Below are positions 14,283 to 64,000 of a stretch of 64,000 bases of DNA, one piece after another (positions within the stretch are counted from its first letter, which is position 1; every line of letters starts with the position of its first letter). The notes beneath the pieces were generated by a model, which was not told the origin of the DNA, ran no database searches, and saw only the letters and a program-made list of their open reading frames with translations. This DNA comes from Inonotus obliquus (Eukaryota > Basidiomycota > Agaricomycetes > Hymenochaetales > Hymenochaetaceae): the NCBI GenBank assembly GCA_032164295.1, contig JAJHTX010000004.1, positions 186,001-250,000 on the forward strand. The letters are read 5' to 3'. A program made the position numbers and the translations under genes.

Positions 14283-15605
14283 TCATTTCTGCTTTTTTGA
14301 ACCAGAACCCGGCGAGGCTCCTGCTGCTGATTTTCTCTTGACGGCGGTCGCCTTATGTAATATACCTGTTGCGTTTGATTTATCACTTCCACTTGGATCG
14401 CGGACTACTATTCTTAGTCCCTGTTTATATGCTACTTGGTCTTCAATGCAAGGAGTGAGTACTTACTTCATGAATAAGTAAATGAAGCGAAAAGCTTACA
14501 AAAAGGGAGCCCAAGTAGGCAATCTGCATCATCTGCAAGTGCCCCTGCATTGTCCAGTTTCACTGTCACCATGCTCCGTTTCGAGCTTGAAAATTAGATA
14601 CTTCCCTTTTATGGCTTGATAATCTTTCTCTGAAAGCATTAGTAAACCCATAGGTCTGTGCTCCTGTCGTGGATTACAGCCATCATCTTTCAATATGTCC
14701 TTCAAAGCTTCAAATAGCCACTCCTTGACAAAAATATCTGATGAACCCGAATCAAGAACATATGTAACTATTGTCTTTCCCTCCTCCCGCTTCAGGAGGT
14801 CCACGTGCTTGTTTTCTTGCCCATATGCAATTGCTCCTTGGAAATTTCCTCCGCTACCAGCTGGCTTTAAATAGTGAATAAGACGGTCCCTGGGATCAAC
14901 AGTTCCAATCTCAACGTAGCCTTTGAACTCGTCCTTCCCTTTTTCCGGTGGAAGTAAATTCATGGCCATGGTCTTGTGCAAATGGCCGTTGCCTTGCTGC
15001 TTTAAAATGGTATCAATTATGTGCATGTAGCCCTTCTCAACTAAAACTTTATCCAAAATCCGGAGACCGATGATAGCACGGTAACTTTCCGTGCCGTTTA
15101 GGAATGGTAAATCTGAGATGCAGACCGCTTGCATGGGATCATCAATAACTATCTCCTCATCACTATCGCAGCCAAGTCTCATGCGAAAGTAGTACACGCT
15201 TTCCTGTTCGGCTGTCAGTGTGCCATACCCGGGGAAGTGATTTGAGACTTTGTAATTTGCCCTTCGGGCGTTGCCTAATTCTTGTGCAACAGCCTCGCGT
15301 GAAACGATTGTTACATCACAGCCAGTGTCCACTAAAGCCGTTAGTTTCGTATTTCCTATCATTATCGCAGTGTAGAGATTTGTTGTATTTCCGTATGCCC
15401 CAAAAATATTATTACGTGTGCCGAGGTCTGCAGGTTGGATGGGTGGCACTGCGGTACTGGACATGTGTGATACCGTCAAGGCAGTTCGGCCAAGGCCAAC
15501 GATAGAGCCCCAAACATGTAGACGCGGGGTTTTATTTCTTTCGGAAGGTCCATGGGTCGTCGAGGAAGACTGTTTATGTTGAGGGTCCAAAGAGAGCTTC
15601 GCCAT
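14283..15605 (-). pseudogene. Pepsin-like aspartic protease, copy 2 (frame-disrupted)
   Basis: Same family as 6628-7917. The N-lobe motif is ALVDTGCDVTIVSREAV and the C-lobe motif is YVLDSGSSDIFVKEW. The open frame runs 15605 to 14529 (358 codons) and then shifts. A stretch of about 75 bp present in copies 1 and 3 (around the GYKAG motif) is deleted after LETEHG, so the frame reads into an early stop. Beyond the break the sequence still matches the family in another frame, down to the conserved basic tail and stop at 14283. The catalytic lobes are retained but the C-terminal subdomain is lost, so it is probably a pseudogene or a shortened product. Confidence 0.7.
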
Positions 15606-15609
15606 CGGT

Positions 15610-21336: not shown

Positions 21337-24300
21337 CTATTTAGCGTCAGATCCTATATAACCTTTATACCATCCATCACCCACTTCGTCGCCCGTAAAT
21401 TCAAGTCTCGTAGAGAATCGTGCCCCGATTATAATAGTATTGTGAGGTTGATAAAGCGTTCCGCGCATGTCTGGCGGAATCCACAGCAATAACTCTCCAT
21501 TCTTCCCTAATAACCACCCATCATCAGAGCGAATCCAATCCAAAGAAATGCCCAGGCGAACAAGAAGTGCAGGTCGTTCTGCGTCGGTTCTTCCGTGGTG
21601 TAGCAATTCATCTTCGGATACGTCTCTTGATACAACGGCGGCAGATAGTCTGCCGTGTTCGACGTTCCAAACACGAACCATCCTATCCTCCGAACCAGAA
21701 GCAACTTGTTCTCCATCCGACGAGAATCCGGCCGAATTGACCCAATCCTCATGCCCTTCAAATGGACCAGCGACGAGATTCCCGCTCTCCGCATCCCACA
21801 CACGCACTGTCCCGTCGGACGATCCCAATATAATGCGCGTCCCATCTGGAGAGAAAGCGACAGAAGTGACCGCACTTTCAACCCCTTCAAATGGACCTGC
21901 AACGAGTTTCCCGCTCTCCGCATCCCACACACGAACTGTCCCGTCGGACGATCCCAATATAATGCGCGTCCCATCTGGAGAGAAAGCGACAGAAGTGACA
22001 AAATCTTCATGGCCTTCAAATGGACCTGCAACGAGTTTCCCGCTCTCCGCATCCCACACGCGCACTGTCTTGTCCCACGATCCCGATACAATACGCGTCC
22101 CATCTGGAGAGAAAGCGACAGAATTGACCGAACCTTCATGCCCTTCAAACGGACCTGCAACGAGTTTCCCGCTCTCCGCATCCCATACACGCACTGTCCC
22201 GTCGTCCGATCCCGATACAATACGCGTCCCATCTGGAGAGAAAGCGACAGAATTGACCCAATCTTCATGCCCTTCAAACGGACCTGCAACGAGTTTCCCG
22301 CTCTCCGCATCCCACACACGCACTGTGTCGTCGTCCAATCCCGATACAATACGCGTCCCATCTGGAGAGAAAGCTACAGAATTGACAAAATCTTCATGGC
22401 CTTCAAATGGACCAGCGACGAGCTCCCCGCTCTCCGCATCCCACACACGCACTGTGTCGTCGTCCGATCCCGATACAATACGCGTCCCATCTGGAGAGAA
22501 AGCGACAGAATTGACCGAACCTTCATGCCCTTCAAACGGACCTGCAACGAGCTCCCCGCTCTCCGCATCCCACACACGCACTGTGTCGTCGTCCGATCCC
22601 GATACAATACGCGTCCCATCTGGAGAGAAAGCGACAGAATTGACCGAACCTTCATGCCCTTCAAACGGACCTGCAACGAGCTCCCCGCTCTCTGCATCCC
22701 ACACACGCACTGTCATGTCGGACGATCCCGATACAATACGCGTCCCATCTGGAGAGAAAGCGACAGAATTGACCGAACCTTCATGGCCTTCAAATAGACC
22801 AGCGACGAGCTCCCCGCTCTCCGCATCCCACACACGCACTGTGTCGTCGTCCGATCCCGATACAATACGCGTCCCATCTGGAGAGAAAGCGACAGAATTG
22901 ACCGAACCTTCATGGCCTTCAAATGGACCAGCGACGAGCTCCCCGCTCTCCGCATCCCACACACGCACTGTCTTGTCGGACGATCCAGAAGCAATCTTTT
23001 TCCCATCAGGGGAAAACGCAACTGAGGTGACCTCGTCCTCATGTCCTGTAAACGTTTTCATACACGGTTGCGGTGGCTTTGTACCAAATCTTCGAACTGG
23101 AATAACCGGACAAATTTTTGAGTAATGCTCTGCAACGACCGAGTCTGCTCTCGAGAGTGACAGTGCGGAGATATAAATGTGTGGAACGCTTGTTGAAATC
23201 GGCAATGCGAAAACGCTGGCTAGCCTATAGGCATCCCATAGAAAGGAAGAAAGATCCTTGGCACTAGTCTAGTACACGATTAGTGCCTTCATTGACAGAA
23301 CAAACCTGGCATACTCACTGCGGTCCATAGCGTGGCTTCAAGCAGCGCACGGCCAGCTAACCGTCTGAAGTGCTTCGTCAAGCTGAGCACTTCAAACCAG
23401 TACATCAGGTGTTTCCGTGCAAAAACGTTTAGTCTATCGGATAACTCGGCTGAGTATGGCACATCGTAGAGATGCTCAGCCCAGAACCGACAAGCGTAGT
23501 CCAGATCCGGAGAAACGTTTCGCTCGATTGCGTCTCTGATCTCGGCGACATCATCATTACGAACGAAGGACGACGGCAAACCGCAGATATTGAATCGGAG
23601 CTTCTCCCGCATGACATCAAAGCAGCGCTCTGCAAGGTCCTTCTTTTGTGTTGTCACGTCGACGTACCATGGCCGCCCCGCGCGTCCAGGCGACATGAGA
23701 TAATCGAAGAACGATGTGTGAAAAAGGCGAATAGGTTCGTTGACGTTGTCGGTTGTGTAGACAAGTACACTCTGGAGGCGGGAAACGATGAACTTGGAGG
23801 ATAGAGCAGGAGGAAGGCCTAGGAGTGCATCGATGGCAGGGACGGAAAGTGGTGCTTTACCAAGAAGGATGACACCTAGAACTCGTGAGAAGCATTCTCG
23901 TGATTCCCCCTCTTCCCAACATATCTCAGAATGCTGAAGTACCAAATCATATAGGCCATGTAAGTCGAATACAGGGCCCGCGTCCTTGGAGCGACAGCAA
24001 TTAACTAATCGCTGGAGTGTAGCGAGCGGGAAAGTGCTCTTTTCAACGATAAGCACCGCAGTTGATGCCCAAACGAAAAGACCGTCGGCTGTTTCACTCA
24101 GAAGCTCCAACCTTTCTTTCCAATCCTCTGGCGATTCCTTCGTCTTCGTCAGAATGGGATGCATCTTGTGCTCAATATATTGAGACACATCCGCGCGACT
24201 CTCCTGCGACGAGTGGTGAAGCTTTAGCGGAAAGACACCTGGTCCGGCTAGAGCCTCAGCTAAGTCTTCCTCCGGACGGCTCGTAATCAAGAATCGGAAC

Positions 24301-26188
24301 GAAGATGGAAGCCTAGGGAACTGCTCTTTGATAATTTTAAGCAAATGTTTGCGAGCATGAGATGTGCCACATTCGTCAAGCGCGTCTAGAACAACAGCAA
24401 CAGGACCATGTATAGAGCCCGCCGCCGCCGCCAATGGTTCGAGTAGAAGCTTCTGGAACTGGGCGTCAAGCGAAGCAGAGACAATTCCGTTGTCACGTCC
24501 GATAGCTTTCGCAATGTTCTCCGCGATAACCTGGTCGAACGATGCCAGCCAGAACGCGATAGTGCGGATGACACTGCTCGGATCGGACTTGCCACGAACG
24601 AAAAAGAGGTAGGCACCACGACGAGACATGCGTAAGCACTCCTCGGCGATGGTCATGCTGATGGTGCTCTTCCCCGTGCCTGCTGCACCGGAAAGCCAGA
24701 GAATATTCTCCTGCGTCTCCGAGAACAACCATTCCGTGATTTGTGTCAGATATTCTGTACGAGTGCCAGGGAGACACTGATCTTTCTCGGATGCATTCAT
24801 GTCAGCGGGGGCGAGCTCGTTTCGCAAATCTGGTGACAATCATCAGGCAAAGTAAGGGATAATCATAATCAACACTCACATATAGCGTTGACCTTTCCAG
24901 ACATCCGCGCGGAGACAAATGTTGTCTGAAGAGTCGTTCCGCGTTCTATTGCATCCCTTAGATCGTTGAAACGCGCGACGAAGTCGTCAACTTTCTGTCG
25001 TTGACCGGACTTGACCATTCGTTCTTAAAACCAATCCTCAGTCCCTGAGCATGATGAACATATTGCGCCAGAGTTACTCACCGATGAATCCGGGTCGAGT
25101 GTACTGCCGAATGAAGAGACAGCATTCCGTTGTCTGCCGAAGAAATTCGACTATTTTCGATTGCAAAGGGTCAATCTTGTCTCGCAATGAATCAGCGTGC
25201 TCAACGTAGTTGAAGGTCTCTTCCATCAAGCGCACAAGTCCAACGACCCGCTGGTCGGCCTCGATCTGCTTCATGGCGGCCTTTGCGTGATTTCAATATG
25301 TCTGCAATTGTCCAAGCATAATAGATACACATACGTTGTAGAGAGATGATATGACGTGCCATGCAGCATTTGCGTATGGGTGAATCTGAGAAGTACTGAT
25401 CAGTAGATGGTCAAATTCCACAGTGAGTTTGGACGTACTGCTGCGATGCTATCCACGAAATCGGTGAACTTCTGTATTTTACCGAGTAGAGCCCCCAGAG
25501 AAATGACCAGGTCTTTCTGTGCATTCACTTGGTCCGTTACGTCGGTGGCAGTAGCTGCGCCCTGTGCAAGAGTCGAATTTACCGTTTTAAGTCCCTTCAC
25601 ATCCTCCTTAGCTTTCTCCATTCCCTCTTTCACTGCCTCCTTATCATCGGCGGGCTTGATGCGCAGGAACACAGTGGCCGTCACATTTGATGAGGTGTCG
25701 TCAAGGCGCGAACGAAGTTGGAGCTCGACTGAGCGCAAGTCAGTCCCCTGAGGGAGAGTGAGGGGCACAGATGGAATGCTTTACCTTCTCCGTTGGTACT
25801 TTCCTGAAATGCTTGCAGCTTCACTGTAGCGGCTCCAATGCAGGTTCTTCGAAATGGTGGGAATAATGACTTGTGTTTTAGTTCAACAATGAGATCTATC
25901 GCACGAGAAGACTCCTGTACGTTTCTGCAGGAGGAAATCAGATAGCGGAACGGTGAAGGAGGACAACGGGTACATACAATGCAAACGCTTCGTTCCACTC
26001 AGGTGAGGTCGTCCTGTTCAATTTTCGAGTTTTCCACTCTTGGTTGCCGAACATCACCTTGACATAGGCATTTGGCGCCTTGCTACCCCACTCTATAATT
26101 TCTGCACGAAGGACTGATATGGATATTAGAACACGAAGCTGAGTGGAGGGTAGAGAGACGAACCTTCGAGGGTGTAAGGAGTGGCCAT
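21337..26188 (-). CDS. C2-NACHT-WD40 NLR-type STAND protein, left copy
   Basis: A fungal NLR-like receptor with a signal-transducing NTPase and propeller sensor, the class that includes HET-E/NWD incompatibility proteins. Start ATG at 26188 (MATPYTLE, split by an intron before VLRAEII). An N-terminal C2-like domain follows (APNAYVKVMFGN, SPEWNEAFAL and TCIGAATVKL). Next is a helical region including IHPYANAAW and MKQIEADQRVV. The NACHT exon (23319 to about 24840) has Walker A GAAGTGKST and Walker B VVLDALDECG. The last exon (21337-23268) carries 11 WD40 blades of about 43 residues (VAFSPDGTRIVSGS and TVRVWDAESG). It ends with a WIRSDDGWLLGKNGELLLW domain. Blades 2-8 are nearly identical at DNA level. 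The frame is intact throughout. The long opposite-strand frames here are shadows of the repeats. Confidence 0.88.
21690..23062 (-). repeat. 129-bp WD40 minisatellite-like array, 11 units
   Basis: Eleven tandem coding units of about 129 bp. Units 2-8 differ mainly in the two or three residues after GHE (GS, DF, DW), at the DDD/SDM/DDG/WDK position and at GEL/GKL. Such near-identity among WD40 blades is typical of fungal NLRs that recombine between repeats. Units 1 and 11 are the most divergent, as expected if unequal exchange works on the inner units. Confidence 0.85.
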
Positions 26189-42717: not shown

Positions 42718-45700
42718 ATGACCATTTTTTACACCCTCGAAGGTTCGTGTCTCTACCCTCCACTCAGCTTCGTGTTCTAATATCCGTTCCAGTCCTTCGT
42801 GCAGAAATTATAGAGCGGGGTAGCAAGGCGCCAAAAGCCTATGTCAAGGTGACGTTCGGCAACCAAGTACGGAAAACTCGAAAATCGAACAGGACGACCT
42901 CACCTCAGTGGAACGAAGCATTCGCATTGTATGTACCTGTAGTCCTCCTTCACCGTTCCGCTATTAATGTCCTTCTGCAGAAACGTACAGGAGTCTTCTC
43001 CTGCGATAGATCTCATTGTTGAACTGAAACACAAGTCATCATTCCCACCATTTCGAAGAACCTGCATTGGAGCCGCTACAGTGAAGCTGCAAGCCTTTCA
43101 GGAAAGTACCAACGGAGAAGGTAAAGCATTGCATCTGTGCCCCTCACTCTCCCTCAGGGACTGACTTGCGCTCAGTCGAGCTCCAACTTCGTTCACGCCA
43201 TGACAACCGCACCTCATCAAATGTGACGGCCACTCTGTTCCTGCGCATCAAGCCCGCCGATGATAAGGAGGCAGTGAAAGAGGGAATGGAGAAAGCTAAG
43301 GAGGATGTGAAGGGACTCAAAACGGCAAAATCGACTCTTGCACAGGGCGCAGCTACTGCCACCGACGTAACGGACCAAGTGAATGCACAGAAAGACCTGG
43401 TCATTTCTCTGGGGGCTCTACTCGGTAAAATACAGAAGTTCACCGATTTCGTGGATAGCATCGCAGCAGTACGTCCAAACTCACTGTGGAATTTGACCAT
43501 CTACTGATCAGTATTTCTCAGATTCACCCATACGCAAATGCTGCATGGCAGGTCATATCATCTCTCTACAACGTACGTGTATCTACTATGCTTGGACAAT
43601 TGCAGACATATCTAAATCACGCATAGGCTGCCATGAAGCAGATCGAGGCCGACCAGCGAGTCGTTGAACTTGTGCGCTTGATGGAGGAGACCTTCAACTA
43701 CGTTGAGCACGCTGATTCATTGCGAGACAAGATTGACCCTTTGCAATCGAAAATAGTCGAATTTCTTCGGCAGACAACGGAATGCTGTCTCTTCATTCGG
43801 CAGTACACTCGACCCGGATTCATCGGTGAGTAACTCTGGCGCAATATGTCCATCATGCTCAGGGACTGAGGATTGGTTTTAAGAACGAATGGTCAAGTCC
43901 GGTCAACGACAGAAAGTCGACGAGTTCATCGTGCGTTTCAACGATCTAAGAGATGCAATAGAACGCGGAACGACTCTTCAGACAACCTTTGTCTCCGCGC
44001 GGATGTCTGGAAAGGTCAACGCTATATGTGAGTGTTAATTATGATTATCCCTTACTTTGCCTGATGATTGTCACCAGATTTGCGAAACGAGCTCGCCCCT
44101 GCTGACATGAATGCATCCGAGAAAGATCAGTGTCTCCCTGGCACTCGTACAGAATATCTGAATCAAATCACGGAATGGCTGTTCTCGGAGACGCAGGAGA
44201 ATATTCTCTGGCTTTCTGGTGCAGCAGGCACAGGGAAGAGCACCATCAGCATGACCATCGCCGAGGACTGCTTACGCATGTCTCGTCGTGGTGCCTACCT
44301 CTTTCTCGTTCGTGGCAAGTCCGATCCGAGCAGTGTCATCCGCACTATCGCGTTCTGGCTGGCATCTTTCGACCAGGTTATCGCGGAGAACATTGCGAAA
44401 GCTATCGGACGTGACAGCGGAATTGCCTCTGCTTCGCTTGACGCCCAGTTCCAGAAGCTTCTACTCGAACCATTGACGGCGGCAGCGGGCTCCATGCAGG
44501 GTCCTGTTGCTATTATCCTTGACGCACTTGACGAATGTGGCACATCTCATGCTCGCATTATCAAAGAGCAGTTCCCTAGGCTTCCATCTTCGTTCCGATT
44601 CTTGATTACGAGCCGTCCGGAGGAAGACTTAGCTGAGGCTCTAGTCGGACCAGGTGTCTTTCCGTTAAAGCTTCACCACTCGTCGCAGGAGAGTCGCGCG
44701 GATGTGTCTCGATACATTGAGCACAAGATGCATCCCATTCTGACGAAGACGAAGGAATCGCCAGAGGATTGGAAAGAAAGGTTGGAGCTTCTGAGTGAAA
44801 CGGCCGACGGTCTTTTCGTTTGGGCATCAACTGCGATCCTTATGGTTGAAAAGAGCACTTTCCCGCTCGCTACACTCCAGCGACTGGTCAATTGCTGTCG
44901 CTCCAAGGACGCGGGCCCTGTATTCGGCTTACAAGGCCTATATGATTTGGTACTTCAGCATTCTGAGATATGTTGGGAAGAGGAGGAATCACGAAAATGC
45001 TTCTCACGAGTTCTAGGTGTCATCCTTCTTGGTAAAGCACCACTTTCCGTCCCTGCCATCGATGCACTCCTAGGCCTTCCTCCTGCTCTATCCTCCAAGT
45101 TCATCGTTTCCCGCCTCCAGAGTGTACTTGTCTACACAACCGACAACGTCAACGAACCTATTCGCCTTTTTCACACATCATTCTTCGATTATCTCATGTC
45201 GCCTGGACGCGCGGGGCGGCCATGGTGCGTCGACGTGAGTATACAAAAGAAGGACCTTTCAGAGCGCTGCTTTGATGTCATGCGGGAGAAGCTCCGGTTC
45301 AATATCTGCGGTTTGCCGTCGTCCTTCGTTCGTAATGATGATGTCGCCGAGATCAAAGACGCAATCGAGCGGAACGTTTCTCCGGATCTGGACTACGCTT
45401 GTCGGTTCTGGGCTGAGCATCTCTACGATGTACCATACTCAGACGAGTTATCCGAGAGACTGAACTTTTTTGCATGGAAACACCTGATGTACTGGTTTGA
45501 AGTGCTCAGCTTGACGAAGCACTTCAGACGGTTAGCTAGCCGAGCGCTGCTTGAAGCCACGTTATGGACCGCAGTGAGTATGTCACGTTCAAGATGTCAA
45601 CGAAGGCACTGATCGTGTAGTAGACTAGTGCCAAGGATCTTTCTTCCTTTCTATGGGATGCCTATAGGCTAGCCAGCATTTTCGCATTGCCGACTTCAGA

Positions 45701-47654
45701 AAGCATAGCACACATTTATATCTCCGCACTATCACTCTCGAGAGCAGACTCGGTCGTTGCAGAGCATTACTCAAAATTTTGTCCAGTTATTCCAGTTCGA
45801 AGATTTGGAACAAAGCCACCGCAACCGTGTATGAAAATCTTTACAGGACACGGCACGGTCGAATCAGTTGCGTTTTCCCCTGATGGGAAGAAGCTTGTTT
45901 CTGGATCGTCCGACAAGACAGTGCGTGTGTGGGATGTGGAGAGCGGGGAGCTCGTCGCTGGTCCGTTTGAAGGTCATGAAGGTTCGGTCAATTCTGTCGC
46001 TTTCTCTCCAGATGGGACGCGTATTGTATCGGGATCGGACGACAAGACAGTGCGTGTGTGGGATGCGGAGAGCGGCGAGCTCGTTGCTGGTCCATTTGAA
46101 GGGCATGAAGACTCGGTCTACTCAGTCGCTTTCTCTCCGGACGGGAAGCGCATAGTTTCGGGATCGGACGACAAGACGGTGCGTGTGTGGGATGCGGGGA
46201 GCAGCGAACTCGTTGCTGGTCCGTTTGAAGGACATGAAGGTTCGGTCTACTCTGTTGCTTTCTCTTCGGACGGGAAGCGCGTTGTTTCGGGATCGGAGGA
46301 CAAGACAGTACGTGTGTGGGATGCGGAGAGCGGGAATCTCGTTGCTGGTCCATTTGTAGGGCACGAAGGCTACATCAACTCTGTCGCTTTCTCTCCAGAT
46401 GGGAGGCGCATTGTTTCGGGATCGGCAGACAAGACGGTGCGTGTGTGGGATGCGGGGAGCAGCGAGCTCGTTGCTGGTCCGTTTGGAGGACATGAAGATT
46501 CGGTCTACTCCGTCGCTTTCTCTCCGGACGGGAAGCGCATAGTTTCGGGATCGCAGGACAAGACAGTGCGTGTGTGGGACGCGGAGAGCAGCGAGCTAGT
46601 TGTTGGTCCATTTGAAGGACATGAAGATCCGGTCTACTCCGTCGCTTTCTCTCCGGATGGGAAGCGCATAGTTTCGGGATCGGCCGACAAGACAGTGCGT
46701 GTGTGGGATGCGGAGAGCGGCGAACTCGTTGCTGGTCCGTTTGAAGGACATGAAAATTCAGTCACTTCTGTTGCTTTTTCTCCGGATGGGAAGAAGATTG
46801 TTTCGGGATCATGGAAGACAGTTCGTGTGTGGGATGCGGAGAGCGGCGAGCTAGTTGCTGGCCCATTTGAAGGACACGAAGATAATGTCTACTCCGTCGC
46901 GTTCTCTCCGGACGGTAAGCGCATTGTTGTGGGATCGGGCGACAAGACGTTTCGTGTGTGGGATGCGGAGAGCGGGAATCTCGTTGCTGGTCCGTTTGAA
47001 GGACATGAAGATTCAGTCACTTCTGTCGCTTTTTCTCTGGATGGGAAGAAGATTGTTTGTGTGTGGGATGCGGAGAGCGGAGAGCACATCGCTGGTCCGT
47101 TTGAAGGGCATGAATTTTGCGTCAACTCTGTCGCCTTCTCTCCGGACGGGAAGCGCATTGTTTCGGGATCGGCCGACAAGACAGTGCGTGTGTGGGATGC
47201 GGAAAGCGGAGAGATCGTTGCTAATCCGTTTAAAGGGCATGAAGGGGACGTCCGCGCGGTAGGTTTCTCGTCGGATGGAGAACAAGGTGCTTCTGCTTCG
47301 AAGGATAAGACCGTTCTTGTGTGCAACGTTGAACATAGTAGACTATGTAATGCCCTTACATCGGGAGACGTCTGCGAAGATAAATTGCTGCGCCACGGAA
47401 GGACCGACGTAGGACGACTCTCACTTCTTGCTCGCCTGGGTATTTCTTCGAACTGGATTCGCTCAAATGACGGTTGGTTGTTAGGGAAGAAAGGAGAGTT
47501 ATTGCTGTGGATTCCGCCGGACATGCGCAAAACGCTTCATCAACCTCACAATACTATTTTCATCGGGGCACGATTCTCGACGAGACTTGAATTTACGGGC
47601 GACGAAGTGGGTGATGGATGGTATAAAGGTTATAATGGACATGATGCCGAATAG
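42718..47654 (+). CDS. C2-NACHT-WD40 NLR-type STAND protein, right copy
   Basis: Paralogue of the left NLR with the same exon plan. First exon 42718..42742 (MTIFYTLE), second 42793..42928 carrying the C2-like APKAYVKVTFGN. The helical region includes IHPYANAAW and MKQIEADQRVVELV. The NACHT exon has Walker A GAAGTGKST and Walker B IILDALDECG, and lacks four residues present in the left copy after SHAR (an in-frame deletion). An intron (GTGAGT donor after LLEATLWTA near 45570) leads to the WD40 exon, which has 12 blades, one of which (GKKIVCVWDAESG near 47040) has lost its middle strand. Blade consensus here is GKRIVSGSxDKTVRVW versus GTRIVSGS in the left copy. The C-terminal domain WIRSNDGWLLGKKGELLLW is kept. 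The frame is intact. Confidence 0.88.
45840..47335 (+). repeat. 129-bp WD40 array, 12 units
   Basis: Twelve tandem units. Units share the GKR variant within this array more than with the left-arm array, which favours GTR. This points to homogenisation inside each gene after the duplication. Unit 10 is shortened by loss of the GSxDKTVR segment and unit 8 by one residue (GSWKTV). Confidence 0.85.
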
Positions 47655-51695: not shown

Positions 51696-53416
51696 TGAAT
51701 GCTGCATTTCAACACCGACGTTTAGATGAAATAAGCTATAGTAGAGTTATTGAGCTCTAAGGAGTGTGTAGGAGGCTTAGAACACATCGGCCACATGTGA
51801 ACAGAACCCGACACGTCCAATAGCGATCTCGAGAATGACGCGTATCCAAGTATAACAGTAAGTACTGAGGTGAGTTTTGTCGGACTGCTTTCGCCCAAGT
51901 TCACATTCGGGACTAAAGAGGTTGCTAGAGAGTACAGATCAAGAACCTGAGGAACTTGGTGAGATGCACGATCCATTTGTATCTGTTTCACAGGGAGCTA
52001 TTCATGGTCCTGCTTATTCCCAGAGTCCCCCCCTCTGAGATGAACTCAATAATTCTACGATACTTTATGTAAGTGCGGTGCGTGATGAAAGCCAAAGAAG
52101 GCCTTGTTGCAAACATCTGTCATCTGATCTACGAGCAGATACGGGTGAGATCCAATGAAAAGTTGTGTACATCGAGAGAACGTTTGACTGAGGATGGATC
52201 TACAAGCTCTAGCTGAACACCGGGACTAGAAACCAATGATTATTCACGACCCAGAAGTAGTTGAAAAGAATTATTCAATTTAGTGAGTGGTGGTGATAAC
52301 AGAAGACTCACGAGGTGGGTCTCGAGTCAGCAGGTCAATACGAGACCAAGTTTTGTTGAGGCAACGTTTCTCGAGGTAGCTTCATAGAGAATTATACGAG
52401 TGCCAGGAACGTGATGGAGTCATATAGCAACGGTGTGTATAAGCATACGGTGTTAATACCGGAAGTGAGAAGATGGATTGTCATGATGCGAGCAGACATT
52501 GTTGAAGAAAGAAAAGGAGAATGACCTTTCGCACAAATGTCGGGATTGCCACGAAGCGGACACGGCATGAGCAGGTATCAGAGATTCACAGTTACCCAAG
52601 CGCTGACTTAAGCTATGCCTCAAAGAGCATAAAAAGTATTCACAGCGACGAGCCACAACACAGTCGCAAGTTTGCTTACATAAGTACGTCAAGACTTAGG
52701 GCCGGCTGTCATCATCACAGTATTTGCCAGCAGTGCACTGTGCTCAGAGCTCTGACCTTGAACTCTGCTTTCACCGTTTCCGAACAGCTCAAAGTGAAGA
52801 CAACAACCCAGTTCAACTGTAGGGTCACGCAGGACTGCAATGTCGGATGCTCCCAAGACTGAAGGTACTAGTACTCTTGCCGCAAATGCGTCGATGGAGG
52901 CTTTATAGTTGGATGAATGGAACACGACGACCGACTGCCTCGTTCAAGTCTGATTGCTAAAAGATGTATGAGCGATAAAAACAATGTCCGTGCGTTGAGG
53001 AACTCAGTGAGGGAATCTCATTGACCAACACGTAACCGACTATTGCGCCACTCCTTTGCAAGGACGATCACTTTGCGCAATGTTTTCCCCCACTTTGCGC
53101 ATATTGCATGTAGTTATGCCACATCGCAATCCGCGTCGATCTTGGAGGACTACATACTCTACCTTGTGCCCGAGAGCGTTCGATGCATCATAATAAGCAA
53201 TGTCTCAAAGTCTCAGGACCAGAACTGACACCCCGAAGTCAAAACCTCGCCATCATCACTCGAAACGTAAATCTTCCTTTTCTCTATGGTAGCGTAAAGT
53301 GAGATGATAACAATAATCCCATTGCAGAGGCTGAAGATGGTCGGAAAGCCCTTGGAAAACTCGACCCAAATTCCCGTCGTCCGGGCAACCCCAAAGATAC
53401 TACACTGGTCAGCCAG
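51696..53416. other. Glycosyltransferase/protease intergenic region, right arm
   Basis: Matches 15606-17276 inverted. From about 52310 it also matches the flank of protease copy 4 (58350 onward). A minus-strand frame at 52689-52925 keeps the FHSSNYKASIDAFAARV to GCCLHFELFGNGES peptide found in three copies. No recognised domain and no other gene. Confidence 0.5.
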
Positions 53417-54661
53417 ATGGAGAAACTCTCTTTGGACCCTCAACATGAACAGTCTTCCTCGACGACCCATGGACCTCCCAAGAGAAATAAGCCGGTTGTT
53501 TATCCGCGTCTACATTTCTGGGGCTCTAACGTTGGCCCTGACCGAACTGCCTTGACGATATCACACATGTCCACTACCGCAACCCCACCTGTTCAACCCA
53601 CAAACCTCGCCACGCGTAATAATATTTTTGGAGCATATGTATATTCAGCAAAGCTCTACACTACGATAATGATAGGAAATACGAAACTGCGAGCTTTAGT
53701 GGACACTGGCTCTGATGTAACAATCGTTTCACGCGAGGCCGTTGCACAAGAATTAGGCAACGCCCGAAAGGCAGATTACACAGTCCCACTTGACTTCCCC
53801 GGTCGAGGCACCCTGGAAGCCGAAAAGGCAAGCGTGCACTATTTTCGCATGACTCTTGGCTGCGAAAATGATGAGAAGATAGTTATCGCTGATCCCATGC
53901 AAGCGGTCTGCATCTCAGGTTTAGAATTCCTAAACGGCTCGAACAATTACCGCGCTATCATCGGTCTCGGGCATCTAACGGACGAAGAAAACGCGAAGGG
54001 CTACATGCACATAATTGATACCATTTTGAAGCAGCAAGGCAATGACCATTTGCACAAGACCATGACCATAAATTTGTTTCCACGGGAAAAAGGGAAGGAC
54101 CAGTTCAAAGGATACATTGAGATTGGAGCTGTTGATCCTAAGGATCCTCTTATTCACTATTTTAAGTCAGCTGGTAGCGAAGTTCAGGAGAAAGGACTTT
54201 TCGAAGGAACAATTGCATATGGACAGGTAAACAAGCACGAGGACCTGAAGCGGGAAGAGGGAAAGATAGTAAGGACATATGGTGATCTTGATTCGGGTGC
54301 ACCAGGAATCTTTGTGAAGGAGTGGCTATTTGAAGCTTTGAAGGACAGATTGAAAAAGGTCGGCTGCAATCCAAGACCGGAGGTCATAGTAGAAGGCAGA
54401 TGGGGGGTACTAATACTTTCAAAGGAAGATTATAAAGTCATAGAAGGAAAGCATCTAATCGTCAAGTGCAAAACAGGGTATGAGGAGCAAGACTGGGTCA
54501 AAGTGCCTCTCACTCATGAACTGGGCTATGGATACAAAGCAGGACAGGATGAGCATGAAATGACAGTGGTACTGGACAAAGTAGGGACACTTGCAGATGA
54601 AGGGGATTTCCTACTTGGGCTCACTTTTTGTAAGCTTTTCGCTTCATTTATTTACTTGTAA
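53417..54661 (+). CDS. Pepsin-like aspartic protease, copy 3 (C-terminus altered)
   Basis: 414 codons. N-lobe DTG in ALVDTGSDVTIVSREAV and C-lobe DSG in YGDLDSGAPGIFVKEW are both intact. The frame stops at 54661 after GLTFCKLFASF. Sequence homologous to the copy 1 tail continues in another frame to a basic tail and stop at 54838 (GILHKASAIKRKSK). This is either a frameshift relative to copy 1 or an unconfirmed intron starting GTAAGC at 54630. The N-terminal MEKLSLDPQHEQ extension is shared with copies 2 and 4 but not copy 1, so the true start could instead be the Met near 53567. Confidence 0.65.
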   Translation: MEKLSLDPQHEQSSSTTHGPPKRNKPVVYPRLHFWGSNVGPDRTALTISHMSTTATPPVQPTNLATRNNIFGAYVYSAKLYTTIMIGNTKLRALVDTGSDVTIVSREAVAQELGNARKADYTVPLDFPGRGTLEAEKASVHYFRMTLGCENDEKIVIADPMQAVCISGLEFLNGSNNYRAIIGLGHLTDEENAKGYMHIIDTILKQQGNDHLHKTMTINLFPREKGKDQFKGYIEIGAVDPKDPLIHYFKSAGSEVQEKGLFEGTIAYGQVNKHEDLKREEGKIVRTYGDLDSGAPGIFVKEWLFEALKDRLKKVGCNPRPEVIVEGRWGVLILSKEDYKVIEGKHLIVKCKTGYEEQDWVKVPLTHELGYGYKAGQDEHEMTVVLDKVGTLADEGDFLLGLTFCKLFASFIYL

Positions 54662-55282: not shown

Positions 55283-56902
55283 TGTTAGAAAGGCAATACA
55301 ATTCACTATTACTAAGTCTGATTAATAACCAAAGCGATCTCAATATGAATTGGATACAGGAAAGGTTGAATGCGGTTACACGAATGCTACAGCAGCCAAT
55401 AATACCAGCAACACCAAGATCAGGAGTGTTACAGTATTGTAGTACTGTAGACCAGCACACGAGATAGCAGAGAAGCTACTTCGGGAGATATTGAAGGAAA
55501 TAACATATTCAGCAATAATTAAAGAACAATCGGACATCATGATTAGGAGACGATTCATCATAATGAACTACAAACTGAATACAGCTGTACAGAAAGCTTA
55601 TGAACGAGAAGTCAGATTACTCTCATACGATAATCATTACTTCCTAATGGCAATAGGAATAAGGAACATTGCTTCAAAGGAAGACAATCACCAATGCGAT
55701 GTAGCAGTACTTGACATCAACATTCCATACAGGAGCAAACCTGAAGGTATAGCAAGAGAGTCAGCCTATAAGTGGACTGAGTATCTAGTCCAAAGGCTTA
55801 AGCAATTACTAACAGGAGGAAGAACAGTTGTAAAAGTAAAGGAAGACCGACATGGAGGAATAATAAGGATCAAAGGAATCCGAGGCAGATCACTAGCAGA
55901 TATAGCAGTAGCACCAGGATACACTAGAGTGCAGCAAGTGATTAATAATATCAACACACCTAGGGCAATAGCATTATCCAGATGGCGAAGTGTAGGAACA
56001 TAGACAGAGCCGATGCAGACACCCATATGGCACGTGACCCAAACATTACCATACATGGCACAAGATCGACAGCCTCGACGCCGATCACATGTTATAGATC
56101 TCGACAACATAATACACCATTAAGGATGAGCAGGCAAAACAAAGCTAGGTGGAAGGAGATAGATTACTAAGGACAGGACTAGAAGGTAATAGGAATATGA
56201 CATAAGGTAGTTAGAGTCATCAGAAAACAGGTATGACCGGAACCAATATGAACAAGTCATAGAGCAATGCAATGCAGTTAGCATCGAGTATGACTAGGTC
56301 TGAAAGTAGATACAATGAGGCAAACAGACCAATAGCCCATAATTTCTATACTAGGCAGGCATGTAAAATAGTATAAATAGGAGGCCATCTTAGGGCCAAC
56401 CAACAGTTTAATCCAAGTCCAGAGACTCAGAGTAAACCTCACAGAAAGTCTCCAGTTGATCGATAAACAATCTTACATACTAAGAACCCAAGAAGTACTT
56501 GAGAGCGACCCTTCTTAGCTAATCAACAGTGTGAGTTGAAGCTTAGGTAAAATACGGATTGCAGCTAGACTGTTTCTCCCTATCATTAGCCTGAGTGCTA
56601 ATTGATCGAAGTGTGGTAACTATCGACCTCTCATACCTCTCTTATCGTGTCCAACAAGTGTTAGTACAGATAGTTAAGGTCATCACTTAGTTGTCAGTAT
56701 AACTAACATTACAATAATAGTATTAGACTGAAGGTTACAGAAGTTGGTCAATAGTTGTTTTAAGACGGAGCTTAACACATCCCCTAAGGTGGCTATTGAT
56801 TCCACAGCTATAGTAACATATTGGATTTGGATTAACCCCTCTTTTGAGGTAATAACCAGATCTAGACGCTGATCCTACCAGATCAGCGCCTCCAAACTAA
56901 CA
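55283..56902 (+). mobile_element. Solo LTR of an LTR retrotransposon (1620 bp)
   Basis: The ends are TGTTAG at 55283 and CTAACA at 56902, perfect inverted repeats with the canonical TG...CA. They are flanked by the 5-bp direct repeat CTCTC (55278-55282 and 56903-56907). A TATA box (TATAAATA, 56372-56379) sits in a block shared with the second LTR (catgtaaa, then taggaggccatc). The sequence after the TATA box up to the end has no ATG on the plus strand. The 5' half holds a decayed copy of the LTR-encoded ORF. No internal region remains, so it is a recombination product. The superfamily (gypsy or copia) cannot be decided without pol. Confidence 0.88.
55344..56003 (+). pseudogene. LTR-encoded protein, copy in solo LTR (frameshifted)
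   Basis: Homologous along its length to the 256-aa ORF at 60601-61371: WIQERL, QPIIPATPRS, a CxxC-RPA motif, EITY, DIMIRRRF, QKAYEREVRLLSYD, GIRNIA and PGYTRVQ. One base is missing within the CxxC motif near 55441, so the first ~35 codons and the remaining 170 codons lie in different frames. Apart from this the frame is open to the stop at 56003. Similarity is roughly one half at protein level, so the two LTRs are old relatives and not recent duplicates. Confidence 0.7.
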
Positions 56903-58349: not shown

Positions 58350-59479
58350 TTGCAGGTGGATCTCGAGTCAGTGGGTCAATACGAGACCAAGTTTTGTTCT
58401 GGCAACGTTTCTCGAGGGAGCTTTATAGAGAATTAGACAAGTAACAGGAACATGATAGAGTCATATAGAAACAGTATGTATTAGCATACAGTGTTAATAC
58501 CGGAAGTGAGAAGATGGATTGTCATGATGCGAGCAGACATTGTTGAAGAAAGAAAAGAAGAATGACCTTTTGCACAAAATGTCAGGATTGCCACGAAGCG
58601 GACATGGCATGAGCAGGTATCAGAGATTCACAGTTACCCAAGCGCTGACTTAAGCTATGCCTCAAAGAGCATAAAACGTATTCACAGCAATGAGCCACAA
58701 CACAGAGCATTTGACGTTGGAAGAGTAAGGTGAAACACTCGTTTGCTTACATAAGTACGTCAAGACTTAGGGCCGGCTGTCATCATAGCCAGCAGTGCAC
58801 TGTGCTCAGAGCTCTGACCTTGAACTCTGCTTTCACCGTTTCCGAACAGCTCAAAGTGAAGACAACAACCCAATTCAACTGTAGGGTCACGCAGGACTGC
58901 AATGTCGGATGCTCCCAAGACTGAAGGTACTAGTACTCTTGCCGCAAATGCGTCGATGGAGGCTTTATAGTTGGATGAATGGAACACGACGACCGACTGC
59001 CTCGTTCAAGTCTGATTGCTAAAAGATGTATGAGCGATAAAAACAATGTCCGTGCGTTGAGGAACTCAGTGAGGGAATCTCATTGATCAACGCGTAACCA
59101 ACTATTACGCCACTCCTTTGCAAGGACAATCACTTTGCGCAATGTTTTCCCCCACTTTGCCCATATTGCAGGTAGTTATCATAACTTCATTCGCACCACA
59201 AATTATCTTGGAGGACTACATATCCTACCTCGTTCCCGAGTGCGTTTGATGCATCATAGTAAACAATGTCTCAAAGTCGCAGGACCAGAACTGACATTCC
59301 GAAGGAAAATAAGTCAAGACATAGCCGTCATCACCCGAAATGTAAAACTTCCTTTTCTCTATGGTAGCGTGAAGTGAGATGATAACAATAATCCAATTGC
59401 AGATGGTCGGAATGTTCTTGGAGAACTCGATCCAGATGCCCGTTGTCAGGGCAAACCCAACAATACTACGGTTAGCCAG
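58350..59479. repeat. 5' flank of aspartic-protease unit, copy 4
   Basis: Matches right-arm sequence from about 52310 to 53416, in the same orientation. The minus-strand frame 58760-58987 keeps the peptide with IAVLRDPTVELGCCLHFEL. No complete gene. Confidence 0.6.
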
Positions 59480-60557
59480 ATGGAGAAGCTCTCTTTGTGC
59501 CATCAACATGAACAGTCTTCCTCGACGACCCATGGACATCCCAAGAGAAATAAAACGGTTGTTTATCCGCGTCTACATGTTTGGAGCTCTATCGTTGGCC
59601 CTGGCCGAACTGCCTTGACGGTATCACACATGTCCAGTACTGCAACCCCACCTGTCCAACCTGCAGACCTCGGCACGCGTAGTAATAATATTATTGGAGC
59701 ATACGGATATACAGCAAAGCTCTACACTGAGATAATGATAGGAAACACGAAATTTAAGGCTTTATTGGACACTGGCTCTGATGTAACAATCATTCAACGC
59801 GAGGCTGTTGCACAAGAATTAGGCAATGCCCGAAAGGCAGATTACACAGTCCCACTTGACTTCCCCGGTCATGGCACATTAAGCGAACAGGCAAGCGTGC
59901 ACTATTTTAGCATGACTCTTGGCTGCGATAGTGATGAGGAGATAAATATCGATAAGCCCATGCAAGCGGTCTGCGTCTCAGATTCACAATTCCTAGACGG
60001 CACGGATGGTTACCACGCTATCATCGGTCTCGGGCATTTAACGGACGAAGAAAACGCAAAGGGCTACATGCACATAATTGATACCATTTTGAAGCAGCAA
60101 GGCAATGACCATTTGCACAAGACCATGACCATGAATTTATTTCCACGGGAAAAAGGGAAGGACCAGTTCAAAGGATACATCGAGATTGGAACTGTTGATC
60201 CTAAGGATCCTCTTATTCACTATTTTAACGAAGTTCAGGAGAAAGGAATTTACGAAGGAACATTTGCATATGGGCAATTAAACAAGCACGTGGACCTCCT
60301 GAAGCGGGAGGAGGGAAAGACAGTAGTTACATATGATCTTGATTCGGGTGCACCAGATATTCTTGTCAAGGAGTGGCTATTTGAAGCTTTGAAGGACAGA
60401 TTGGAAGATGATGGCTGTTATCCACGACAGGAGGACAGAGGAGGACCTGTGGCTTTACTAATACTTTCAGAGAAAGATTATCAAGCCATAAAAGGAAAGT
60501 ATCTAATTTTCAAGCTCGAAACAGAGCATGGGGAGCAAAAGCGGGTCAGAGTGCCTC
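59480..60557 (+). pseudogene. Pepsin-like aspartic protease, copy 4, cut by an LTR element
   Basis: The N-lobe DTG (ALLDTGSDVTIIQREAV) and C-lobe DSG (YDLDSGAPDILVKEW) are both present. The coding sequence is interrupted at 60557, where an LTR starts with TGTTAG; the open frame then reads five codons into the LTR and stops at 60571. About 70-80 C-terminal residues of the family are missing here. The rest of the gene should lie beyond the far end of the retroelement, outside the window. Confidence 0.8.
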
Positions 60558-62021
60558 TGTTAGAAAGGTAGTATTATCCATCATTAATAAGCCAATAACT
60601 ATGAGCGTCCTACGTTGGATACAAGAGCGGTTAGCGGCAGTAATACAAGTACTAGAACAGCCCATCGTTCCTCCGACACCGCGAAGCAATATATTACGAT
60701 GTTGCAACACGTGCCGCCCAGCTAAAGAACTAGCTGGAGGACTAATGCGAGAATTAATCAGAGAGATCACGTACGGAGACATAATGAACGGACAAGCCGA
60801 TATAATGATACGACGTCGATTTGTAGAACTAACCTACGACCCTAACCAACAAATGCAAAAGGCTTATGAAAGGGAGATACGAGTATTATCCTACGACGCC
60901 GGACACTTTGTAATGATGATCGGAATACGAAACGTAGCACAGGAAGGAAGACACGAACGATGCGACGCAGCTATAGTAGATGTTGACATTGCCTACAAGC
61001 GAGACCAAGCTGGAACGAACGAGAGAACTGCATATGCTTGGGGGCATTGGATAATGAATTACATAAGTCGAGGATTACCTTATGGATATACCATAATGGA
61101 AATAAAGGTAGAACAGTACGGCGGAGTAATACACCTACAAGGAGTACAAGGGATAACCCTACAACGCGCCAGGACAACGCCAGGATATACACGAGTGCAA
61201 ACTATTCGAAACTGGCTGACTGTACCACGACCGATCCTACCGATACCAACGAGACCCGAAATACAAGGACAGATGACTCAGCAATTACCTAGAATAGCTG
61301 AATTAGATCAAGTGCCGTTACCTACACAAGGATCAAACCTATCTACAAGATGGTACCGCCCACTACACTAAACTAATCAAAGAGAGGCTAGTAACACAGA
61401 GGTAGTGAAATGAGGAAGGAAGTAAAGAGAAAGCACGGACCAGGTATCATAGAGGAAGAAACAGATAAATACCATAAACAGTAAGTAACAAGGTAGTAAC
61501 GTCACACATGTAAATTAGTATATAAGGAGGCCATCGTAGAGCCGACCTAGTAGTTTAATCCAAGTCAAGGGACCCTACCATAAGTCCCTAAGTTAAATCG
61601 TAACATCAATTACTTGCGAGCCAGTAAATTACCAGTAGCGACACGGCTGAACTAAACCGATTGTGTGAAATCGAAGTAAAGCTAAAAATACGGATTGCAA
61701 CTAGATTGTTCTCCCTATTGTCTGCACGGTACGAGCTACTCACAACGTAGTGCGATTCCCGATATTCCCTTATCGTGAATAACAATCAGTATAACAATCG
61801 CGTCTGCACGCCGACTTAATACTGTACGATTATAGTATCAGGTTCAACTGCAATATTAGTTAGTTGCTAGTTGTTTCAGATCGGATCAGCTACACAGTCC
61901 ACTAAGGTGATTAGCAATTCCATAACCAGTATTGTAGAATTTGGATTAACCCCTCAAACCGAGGAATTAGCCAGATTGGTCCGTCGATCAAGAATCAACG
62001 AACCCTCCACGGAGATAAACA
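60558..62021 (+). mobile_element. 5' LTR of a retrotransposon inserted in protease copy 4
   Basis: Begins TGTTAGAAAGG exactly as the solo LTR does and is homologous to it over its whole length, ending near taaaca at 62021. The end is placed by alignment with the solo LTR and by a TGG-starting, primer-binding-site-like block at 62024 (tggattaaactccc). The TATA box (TATATAAG, 61519-61526) lies in the same conserved block. A small inverted repeat with changed loop (cccctc, aaacc, gagg near 61950-61965; cctc, tttt, gagg in the solo LTR) is conserved. The 5 bp preceding the LTR are GCCTC. The matching target duplication would lie outside the window. Confidence 0.8.
60601..61371 (+). CDS. Intact LTR-encoded protein of unknown function (256 aa)
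   Basis: The ORF begins 43 bp inside the LTR and ends before its TATA box, so it lies in the U3 part. Features: CCNTCRPAKELAGGL with a CxxC, EITYGDIMNGQADIMIRRRF, a central QKAYEREIRVLSYD, CDAAIVDVDIAY, VEQYGGVIHLQGVQG and PGYTRVQ. No known domain is recognised. There is no signal peptide or membrane segment; it is Arg-rich and could bind nucleic acid, which is inference. The frame is also open from the LTR start to this ATG. As it precedes the LTR promoter, expression would come from the 3' LTR copy at the end of a full transcript or from an upstream promoter. Conservation with the solo-LTR copy supports real coding function. Confidence 0.75.
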   Translation: MSVLRWIQERLAAVIQVLEQPIVPPTPRSNILRCCNTCRPAKELAGGLMRELIREITYGDIMNGQADIMIRRRFVELTYDPNQQMQKAYEREIRVLSYDAGHFVMMIGIRNVAQEGRHERCDAAIVDVDIAYKRDQAGTNERTAYAWGHWIMNYISRGLPYGYTIMEIKVEQYGGVIHLQGVQGITLQRARTTPGYTRVQTIRNWLTVPRPILPIPTRPEIQGQMTQQLPRIAELDQVPLPTQGSNLSTRWYRPLH

Positions 62022-62023
62022 TC

Positions 62024-62040
62024 TGGATTAAACTCCCTTC
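62024..62040 (+). other. Possible primer-binding site
   Basis: The block tggattaaactcccttc begins 2 bp after the inferred LTR end and starts with TGG, as expected for pairing with a tRNA CCA end. I cannot match it to a specific tRNA. A related word (ttggattaacccctc) lies inside both LTRs near their ends, so the exact LTR border could shift. Confidence 0.35.
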
Positions 62041-62123
62041 TTGGCAAGCTTAAAGGAACAAGCGCAGACTACTGCCAATAAAGGTAATTGTGATAGCACG
62101 AACTAGTCATTCAAATAGACTGA

Positions 62124-62513
62124 TTGAATAATTCCCTTATCCAATCAGTAGGCCACCTGGAACGGCAAATAGACATCAGTAACAACCACCGAAACCTAGA
62201 ACCACAGGTCGGGTTAACATTGGAGCGTACAAAACAAACGCAGGAACGAGAACGAGGAGCGCCGAAGGATATAGACGCGTGGAAGCTAATAGCGAGGCAA
62301 CCAATTTGGCAAGATCTCTACTGGGATCATTTCAAGACAGGAAGGGTTATAGGCAAGGTATCACCTACACCACACGAGAGTGTATTTAAGAGAGCACTAG
62401 AAAACGGAGGAGGAACGTTATACTCCGCGCAAGCACACGCCAACCTATTACACCGAATACTACTAGCCCTACTCAACGGAAAGAAAGAGAAAGCAAAAGC
62501 AAGTAAAGTATAA
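62124..62513 (+). CDS. Retroelement ORF1 without any Met codon (129 codons)
   Basis: An open frame between TGA at 62121-62123 and TAA at 62511-62513, with no ATG in any frame. The encoded peptide includes DAWKLIARQPIWQDLYWDHF, a Gly-Gly-Gly turn (ENGGGTLYS) and a Lys-rich end (NGKKEKAKASKV). The position right after the LTR and primer site and the basic tail suggest a Gag-related or nucleic-acid-binding protein, but no family is recognised. Translation must start at a near-cognate codon (the frame has TTG at 62124 and CTG at 62157, among others) or the frame joins another by splicing. Confidence 0.6.
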   Translation: MNNSLIQSVGHLERQIDISNNHRNLEPQVGLTLERTKQTQERERGAPKDIDAWKLIARQPIWQDLYWDHFKTGRVIGKVSPTPHESVFKRALENGGGTLYSAQAHANLLHRILLALLNGKKEKAKASKV

Positions 62514-62534
62514 GCACAAAAACCGAATATATAA

Positions 62535-64000
62535 TTAAATATAACTATAGTGGCTTACGAAGGAATATACGCGGGGCTGGTTACAGTATTCATATTTGGT
62601 ACGATCTACTATAGGACAGCGATCACAAGTGCGCTCAGACGAGGAACAAGACTACTTCAATACCTGTCTATTTACGAACCCTACGCAACGCAGTGGGGGA
62701 TATATCACTACTCAACTGCCATTGGAACGCAAGTGGACCGATTGGCCGGAAGGATCGAACTAATCCTCAACACACAGGCTGAAAAGGATCAAGCATTGGG
62801 AGTGTACCTAGACCATCAGTTCAATCAACATATCGAGAAACATAGCCGCTGGCACAGGAGTAACGACGAGGCACACCATATCACCAGAACGTTAGTAAGG
62901 TACAACCAGACAGAGCTAGGCATCCTCAGGACAATAACGAGAGAAGTACAACATACCTTCGAGACGCTACAACGAAGACAAGAAGAGCACATAGAGCGGT
63001 GGACTGCCCGAGAACACCGAGACGCCGAATTTCAGCGCGAACTATTAGATAAAGTAAGCCGCATCGAGACAAACTTCCTACGCCTAAGGAATCAAGTGTC
63101 GGATATCAGAGTCGCACTCGCCGCGTGGGAAGGAGAAGAGAGACAGCGGGAGGAAACAGAAATCCAACAAGACTGGAACACCGTCGGATCGTTATTAGGA
63201 GACGATCAAGATCAACCAACGCCGGAACTAACTCAGTCCGAAGCCAGTTGGGAATCACCGAACGAATCGGAGCAGAACGGAGGAGAGTGGGGAACAGGGA
63301 GCCGTTGGGCAAATTCAGAACCAAACAGGTTTAGGGACTTCAACGGAGACGAAAGTTACAGGCACCCAGACTCGCCAATTCCCACTATTCCAGACGAGGA
63401 ACCGGAAGAAGGAGAGATACAATTACACGTAGTCGACTTCAGGGCCCAGACGGAAAACGAAAGTGAGAACCTAACTACAATCACGGAGGAAGAAGAAGGC
63501 ATTAACCAAGAAAGTAGTACCTCCAGGGTTACATTTGATAACGGGAGAAGACTACCAAGCGGCATTAACGTTACTCGAGATCAGACAGGGAACGTCCGCA
63601 TAGACCTGCGAGGATTGGCTAGGTTAAACATAAACGAGATAGTCGAGGAAGTAATTACAGAGCTACAAGAAGAACTAAAACCGACAAACGAACAAATCCC
63701 AACAATAACCATTAGTCGCAAATATCATCGAAAAGCAGATCAGGACAGAATAGTTAAAGGAATCATAGGTCGAATCCGAGAACAAAGGGAAGCGAACAAT
63801 AGGAAAGAAGAAACCAGAGAAGTCCAGAAAACCGAACGAGAACAGGGGATAATTGAAGAGGTAGAAACGAGAGGAAGGTTGGTATTGTATTATTCCCCAG
63901 GATCCACGACCAGTGGCAATTCAGAAGAATTCTCCAGCTCATTCAGCGACGTTAGTCAAGCCCACAGTAGCAACACCACAGAAGACGAATACCTAGAAGA
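62535..64000 (+). CDS. Retroelement ORF2, Met-free, gag-like, continuing past the window
   Basis: The frame is open from after TAA at 62532-62534 to the last base, at least 488 codons with no stop and no Met. It is in the same frame as ORF1, with two TAA codons between them. The best start candidate is GTG at 62550 (A at -3, G at +4). The product would begin with a hydrophobic segment (GLVTVFIFGTIYY), then an amphipathic coiled-coil region (HTFETLQRRQEEHIERW and LLDKVSRIETNFLRL), an acidic Ser/Glu/Pro linker, RGLARLNINEIVEEVITELQ and a charged helical part. This layout fits a Gag-type structural protein. No zinc knuckle, protease or reverse transcriptase lies within the window. Confidence 0.6.

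Follow-up and report, generated by a model that had tools for sequence, protein, structure and literature searches.

Open reading frames (ORFs) that follow one another without internal AUG ahead of the capsid-polymerase ORF are described for rice tungro bacilliform virus (RTBV) and the badnaviruses. According to excerpts of two accounts, ORFs I and II of RTBV have no internal AUG over about 895-900 nt, ORF I starts at AUU, and ribosomes leak to a downstream AUG (PMC3542737, PMC5902531). A like arrangement is found in the genome of the fungus Inonotus obliquus (assembly GCA_032164295.1, 36.07 Mb in 30 contigs), at the right end of a stretch of 64,000 nt, hereafter the window (contig JAJHTX010000004.1, positions 186,001 to 250,000; G000:C4:186001-250000 in our numbering). 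This end sits inside a long terminal repeat (LTR) retrotransposon, which is named family A here. In the excerpts on RTBV, ORF II has an AUG, whereas in family A the AUG-free path is 2,550 nt long and neither of the two upstream ORFs has one. Unlike the Caulimoviridae, which are pararetroviruses without integrase and LTRs, family A has both.

Among LTR retrotransposons, family A resembles Tf1 and the sushi chromoviruses (Tf1 and Tj1 of fission yeasts) in its primer binding site (PBS), which over 11 nt is complementary to the putative 5′ end of its own RNA, and in its chromodomain integrase. Tf1 reportedly begins with gag. Family A has two extra ORFs before gag and another in the LTR, while Tj1, in the excerpted account, begins with gag; the same excerpts describe Tf1 and Tj1 as self-priming, with a PBS complementary to the RNA 5′ end (PMC4600332). 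Excerpts of other accounts mention an extra ORF (ORF0) preceding gag-pol in the plant elements Retrosat2, RIRE3 and RIRE8 (PMC3485330), captured additional ORFs in LTR elements of bdelloid rotifers (PMC5408684), and additional ORFs of unknown function in fungal and spikemoss Gypsy elements (PMC2864245). The three plant elements differ from family A in lineage and in having one upstream ORF instead of two, and the excerpted portions of the ORF0 account contain nothing on AUG avoidance or start codons. The likeness to the rotifer elements concerns the presence of accessory ORFs alone. In a literature search covering titles and abstract openings, no report of AUG avoidance or of non-AUG ORFs upstream of an LTR-retrotransposon gag was found.

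The AUG-free tract of family A

The plus strand contains no ATG at 61511-64000, as an earlier note on this DNA had claimed. The gap that follows the ATG at 61508 runs past the end of the window, in which none of the 64 triplets has a longer gap; the second-longest ATG gap is 557 nt. The first ATG beyond the window is found at L001:3068, which corresponds to 64102 when positions of L001 past the window edge are given in window-equivalent numbering, and thus lies 102 nt past the edge. The earlier note had correctly placed the first AUG beyond the window; its suggestion that this AUG might start pol is ruled out, since by frame and Pfam it opens gag. From the putative transcript start at 61552 to the gag AUG, 2,550 nt contain 0 ATG, whereas 1,000 dinucleotide shuffles of this tract averaged 22.5 and never fell below 13. 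The shuffles that the note had called for therefore bear out the depletion, and they show its expectation of 30-40 ATG to have been too high. CAT is present 29 times, close to the 28 or so reported before, with 36.7 expected over the 2,550 nt.

The features of this part of the element are as follows.

60558..62021, + strand: 5′ LTR, 1,464 bp, TG...CA, identical to the 3′ LTR at L009:6937-8400
60601..61371, + strand: LTR-ORF inside U3, conserved between families A and B, with a presumed ATG start
61519..61525, + strand: TATA box as read from the sequence, ending 27 nt before the putative transcript start
61552..61562, + strand: 11-nt self-primer AGTTTAATCCA, complement of the PBS, marking the putative RNA 5′ end
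61552..62123, + strand: AUG-free leader, 572 nt, 0 ATG against 8.0 expected
62024..62034, + strand: PBS TGGATTAAACT, self-priming type, directly after the 5′ LTR
62124..62513, + strand: ORF1, an open frame of 129 amino acids with no ATG in any frame
62550..64000, on to window-equivalent 64148, + strand: ORF2, 532 amino acids from the proposed GUG
62550..62552, + strand: proposed GUG start of ORF2, with A at -3 and G at +4, within ATAGTGGCTTAC

The AUG-free tract comprises the leader, ORF1 and ORF2 up to the gag AUG. The two open frames announced at 129 and at least 488 codons were found at 62124-62513 and from 62535 to L001:3114, the latter with 537 codons from stop to stop. The gap in ATG starts at 61511, which is 8 nt before the TATA box and not just after it, as had been stated. 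The last ATG stands 44 nt before the putative transcript start and the next is that of gag. This agrees with the claim that the strand-specific depletion acts on the transcript, as it is bounded by the putative transcript start and by the first structural-gene AUG. Outside the tract, ATG counts are near or above expectation (U3 18 against 16.2, gag 25 against 19.1, pol 88 against 74.6, 3′ region 46 against 36.7). No ATG occurs in any frame of ORF2 before the gag AUG at 64102; ORF2 extends 47 nt past this AUG, and these 47 nt contain two more ATGs. The return of ATGs after the gag AUG inside ORF2 indicates that the ban is tied to the scanned RNA, and a depletion that is a property of the ORFs was ruled out for family A on this ground.

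The element with both LTRs occupies C4:246558-257899 (11,342 bp), and the 5-bp target-site duplication GCCTC is present on both flanks of the insertion. Its LTRs are 100% identical, so the insertion in the window is young. Pfam domains occur in the order Ty3_capsid, zf-CCHC, gag-asp_proteas, RVT_1, RT_RNaseH, Integrase_H2C2 and rve, followed by a chromodomain at the integrase C-terminus (PF00385 Chromo, E 1e-12). Family A is a Ty3/gypsy chromovirus, as follows from this domain set from gag to integrase together with the chromodomain. The identification as an LTR retroelement, made before from the sequence, is borne out by the LTR pair, the target-site duplication and the domains. The gag and pol frames overlap with a -1 offset. 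Stops interrupt the pol frame of the window copy; 7 of the other 14 matches to family A lie within a frame of 1,521 amino acids. In families A and B, TGGATTAAACT is the exact complement of AGTTTAATCCA over 11 nt, and in the minimum-energy fold of the family A leader all 11 nt of 61552-61562 pair with 62024-62034. On the basis of this self-priming arrangement we infer an RNA 5′ end at about 61552.

Recurrence in other copies and families

Sixteen copies of ORF2, including that of the window, match at 97-100%. Variants were counted in 14 of the 16, with indels excluded; L022 and L025 were left out because these loci lack the self-primer, the leader being separated from ORF2. Among the 14 copies with a complete leader, nine contain no ATG and five contain one each, none of them in common, and all five stem from changes present in a single copy. 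Frequent ATGs in other copies, for which the earlier note had asked to look, were not seen.

The layout of family B (C6) is that of family A, with ORF1 30% and ORF2 33% identical to their counterparts. Its LTRs match over 1,615 bp at 99.9% identity and are flanked by GATAG. It contains 2 ATG in 2,597 nt, with 24.0 expected.

Family C consists of 16 gag hits with 22-25% identity. The eleven for which a locus was obtained were used, each with about 1,450 nt before gag. The full leader comes from a single copy (L067 with L053), beginning some 30 nt past the TATA box. This 952-nt leader contains 0 ATG, with 9.9 expected. It is followed by one AUG in weak context (TATaugC), which opens an ORF of 293 amino acids. 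The 832 nt after this AUG contain 0 ATG, with 4.3 expected, and end at the AUG of gag, whose context (ACAaugG) is strong. As in family A, the upstream ORF and gag share an overlap of 47 nt. In the stretch of about 1,450 nt before gag, the AUG of the ORF is the only one in 9 of the 11 copies, and the remaining two have one extra. The search with ORF2 gave no hit in family C and thus offers no evidence that the upstream ORFs descend from a common ancestor.

Selection against AUG

To separate selection from composition, the codons of each ORF were shuffled synonymously, which keeps the protein and the codon usage (5,000 shuffles per ORF, region before the gag AUG). ORF2 of family A has 0 ATG against 10.5 expected, and none of the 5,000 shuffles was as low; for ORF1 the count is 0 against 2.4, reached by 154 shuffles. 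ORF2 of family B has 1 ATG against 7.4 (3 shuffles as low) and ORF1 has 0 against 2.8 (46 shuffles). Depletion of off-frame ATG was also sought in gag, pol and LTR-ORF of both families, and none was found.

The copies carry a record of the same selection. Single-copy variants of family A created 5 new ATG where 4.71 were expected, whereas the 77 changes found in at least two copies created 0 against 3.76 (P 0.019). The corresponding figures for family C are 2 against 2.35 in single-copy variants and 0 against 2.13 in shared ones (P 0.106). Presumably, most of the shared changes passed through transposition. With the window copy as reference, single-copy variants of family A gave 5 new ATG against 4.51; with one genomic copy as reference, family C gave 2 against 2.45 in single-copy and 0 against 1.99 in shared variants. 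In the gag of family A, which served as a control, ATG-creating changes numbered 4 against 2.49 in one copy and 2 against 0.79 in shared variants. ATGs are thus present among single-copy changes and absent from shared ones.

A further depletion was observed for off-frame TGA not preceded by A. In ORF2 of family A (62535-64000), 5 such triplets were counted against 12.5 expected (20 of 5,000 shuffles as low), and ORF2 of family B shows a mild depletion with 11 against 17.4 (171 of 5,000).

ORF1 and ORF2 as protein-coding genes

Shared variants in ORF2 are synonymous in 38 cases, with 16.0 expected, and nonsynonymous in 13, with 32.6 expected. ORF1 has 8 synonymous against 3.6 and 3 nonsynonymous against 6.9, and the ORF of family C has 16 against 6.9 and 4 against 12.1, respectively. 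Taking one copy as reference gave similar values (synonymous and nonsynonymous, respectively: ORF2 40 against 17.4 and 16 against 36.4; ORF1 8 against 3.6 and 3 against 6.9; family-C ORF 17 against 6.9 and 4 against 13.2). The two indel sites in ORF2 among the family A copies measure 6 and 3 nt. Fifteen of the 16 near-full ORF2 copies are free of stops, and the remaining one has a TGA. By these comparisons between copies, ORF1 and ORF2 are shown to evolve as proteins.

The start of ORF2 is probably the GUG at 62550. Conservation between the ORF2 sequences of families A and B begins at ATA-GTG-GCT, the codons upstream differ, and the context of the GUG is good in both. The 12-nt block ATAGTGGCTTAC at this place is the same in family A, in family B and in the older family-B copy, and it is invariant in the 14 family A copies. 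A hydrophobic N-terminal segment begins at the same GUG.

A Pfam scan of ORF1 and ORF2 gave no match. A profile search in a set of 5.8 billion proteins, run with ORF2 and not with ORF1, brought up no relative at E <= 0.001, and a protein search with the family-C ORF returned nothing at the same threshold. A match of Kbp-5 to the family-C ORF was below the cutoff (E 2e-4) and is not believed.

Proposed translation of the element

We consider it likely that the element uses a polycistronic mRNA with a logic like that of RTBV: ribosomes would arrive at gag by scanning, and ORF1 and ORF2 would be initiated at non-AUG codons. The depletion is stranded, bounded and recurrent and coincides with protein constraint, which is what leaky scanning of the RTBV type predicts. 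The comparison with RTBV drawn in the earlier note gains support from the stranded depletion, its recurrence in copies and in two families, and the protein constraint, from which we infer scanning itself. In the proposed course of events, the full-length RNA would carry ORF1 and ORF2 upstream of gag, and 40S subunits, having entered at the cap, would move along the RNA by linear scanning. Weak non-AUG codons would capture a minority of the ribosomes for ORF1 and ORF2, in the case of ORF2 most likely at the conserved GUG. Most ribosomes would pass both ORFs and initiate at the first AUG, that of gag, and pol would be made by frameshifting from gag, as the overlap of the two frames with a -1 offset suggests. 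Any AUG arising in the tract would be selected against, since with ribosomes caught there the element would run short of Gag.

Several observations weigh against this proposal. The 2.55 kb to be scanned linearly greatly exceed the distance in RTBV (about 895-900 nt), and the leader is structured, with the self-primer duplex at its 5′ end. The two ATGs of family B open a 4-codon ORF in good context and a 30-codon ORF with G at -3. In L051 (C12), a distant relative whose stop-containing gag is 31% identical, the 1,488 nt that precede the apparent gag AUG contain 14 ATGs; this locus was looked at for ATG positions and open frames only, its LTR and leader not being delimited. For the start of ORF1 there are only candidates, namely AUA and AUC/AUU codons, and conservation begins at QIDI. 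Taken alone, the family-C ORF is borderline in the synonymous shuffles (0 ATG against 2.2, 252 of 5,000 as low). The test on shared variants rests on small numbers: the probability of zero is 0.019 for family A and 0.106 for family C, with a product of about 0.002. When the window copy is taken as reference, the shared variants of family A include 1 nominal ATG against 3.78 expected; the next base is also changed in all 6 carriers, so none of them has an ATG. A nonsynonymous deficit is also seen in single-copy variants (26 against 35.7 in ORF2, 9 against 22.0 in the family-C ORF). Some of these variants must accordingly predate insertion, and the class regarded as neutral is not purely neutral.

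The alternatives differ in what they require of the tract. Loss of ATG through base composition or mutational bias, owing to the A-rich strand or the mutation spectrum, would need no selection at all, and the region is indeed A-rich with a strong AT skew. This explanation is extremely improbable, as it is contradicted by both the dinucleotide and the synonymous shuffles, by the near-normal number of CAT, and by single-copy variants that create ATG at the neutral rate. Furthermore, an older family-B copy at C13 has 8 ATG, whereas the young copy has 2; 10.7 new ATGs would be expected if all differences had arisen on the C13 side. A compositional or mutational cause was rejected on the shuffles, the variant classes and this copy. 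An internal ribosome entry site (IRES) just upstream of gag, with the loss of AUG unrelated to scanning, is hardly more credible. An IRES may be signalled by a long stretch 5′ of the main ORF, but it would make an AUG-free path needless, and the depletion spans the whole distance from the putative cap site to the gag AUG. Shunting and splicing are the rivals that merit consideration, in contrast to an IRES.

Ribosome shunting as in RTBV and cauliflower mosaic virus (CaMV) would have a short ORF translated and the leader structure jumped, with landing before ORF1 and leakage to gag. A candidate for the short ORF exists:

61690..61704, + strand: 4-codon short ORF with an ACG start; the family B counterpart (L063:3824) starts with ATG

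This 5′-proximal ORF stands at the corresponding place in both families, and none of 100 shuffles of the family A leader folds as well as the leader itself (z -3.3). In the family A fold, however, the short ORF lies within the main closing stem, the self-primer duplex, and not ahead of it. The family B leader folds differently and has only a mild advantage over its shuffles (z -1.6, 1 of 20 as good); a shunt-type stem after the short ORF, sought in both folds, was found in no form common to the two. Shunting does not require an AUG-free leader, yet the leader is devoid of ATG. A shunt of the RTBV/CaMV type is not supported for family A, and we regard it as quite unlikely. It is also unlikely that only gag is reached by scanning of the AUG-free RNA while ORF1 and ORF2 are expressed from another RNA, through a spliced upstream AUG exon or another promoter. 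Long open frames without AUG would fit such an arrangement, and the AUGs of the upstream LTR-ORF could serve as a first exon. Against it stands the beginning of ORF2, where both the conservation between families A and B and the hydrophobic N-terminus set in at the GUG; its context is good in both families, and the codons that precede it differ.

Leaky scanning from non-AUG starts, if true, would extend from plant pararetroviruses to fungal LTR retrotransposons. On balance we favour the view that a fungal chromovirus lineage, independently of the plant pararetroviruses, has acquired a polycistronic genomic mRNA that would supply two accessory proteins only from non-AUG codons, a single weak AUG being sufficient in a relative, family C. 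Its 2.55-kb AUG-free path is nearly three times that of RTBV, and the element would constitute a natural, multi-copy and evolving test of the reach of ribosomal scanning. Annotation based on AUG would miss such ORFs, so that many accessory genes in LTR elements may have escaped notice.

The LTR-ORF and the surroundings of the element

The LTR of the retrotransposon seems to encode a conserved protein, the LTR-ORF. The ORF at the corresponding place in family C aligns with it at 22%, which is suggestive only. A Pfam scan of LTR-ORF gave no match. Genome-wide, 125 matches are listed for LTR-ORF (60601-61371; also L009:6851-7750); those in other families mostly have 41-47% identity and many are without stops. 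Two ENA proteins match it at 40-43% identity. A degraded relative of LTR-ORF is located near the element at 55309-55973 (C4:241309-241973).

Between the chromodomain and the 3′ LTR lie two small ORFs, L009:6073-6384 and L009:6347-6850, for which a Pfam scan gave no match. One of them has a strong hydrophobic segment and the other is very acidic.

The element is inserted in an ORF at 59378-60571, and a similar reading frame resumes past the 3′ LTR. This ORF is one of four similar ORFs of 395-513 amino acids in the window (59378-60571, 53303-54661, 14529-15716 and 6628-8169) with a retropepsin-like motif; it was the only one of the four scanned and matched Asp_protease_2 (E 5e-5). Two further ORFs of the window, 21337-24839 and 44068-47654, are very similar to each other and lie in opposite orientation; we take them to be of the NACHT-like plus WD40-repeat type.

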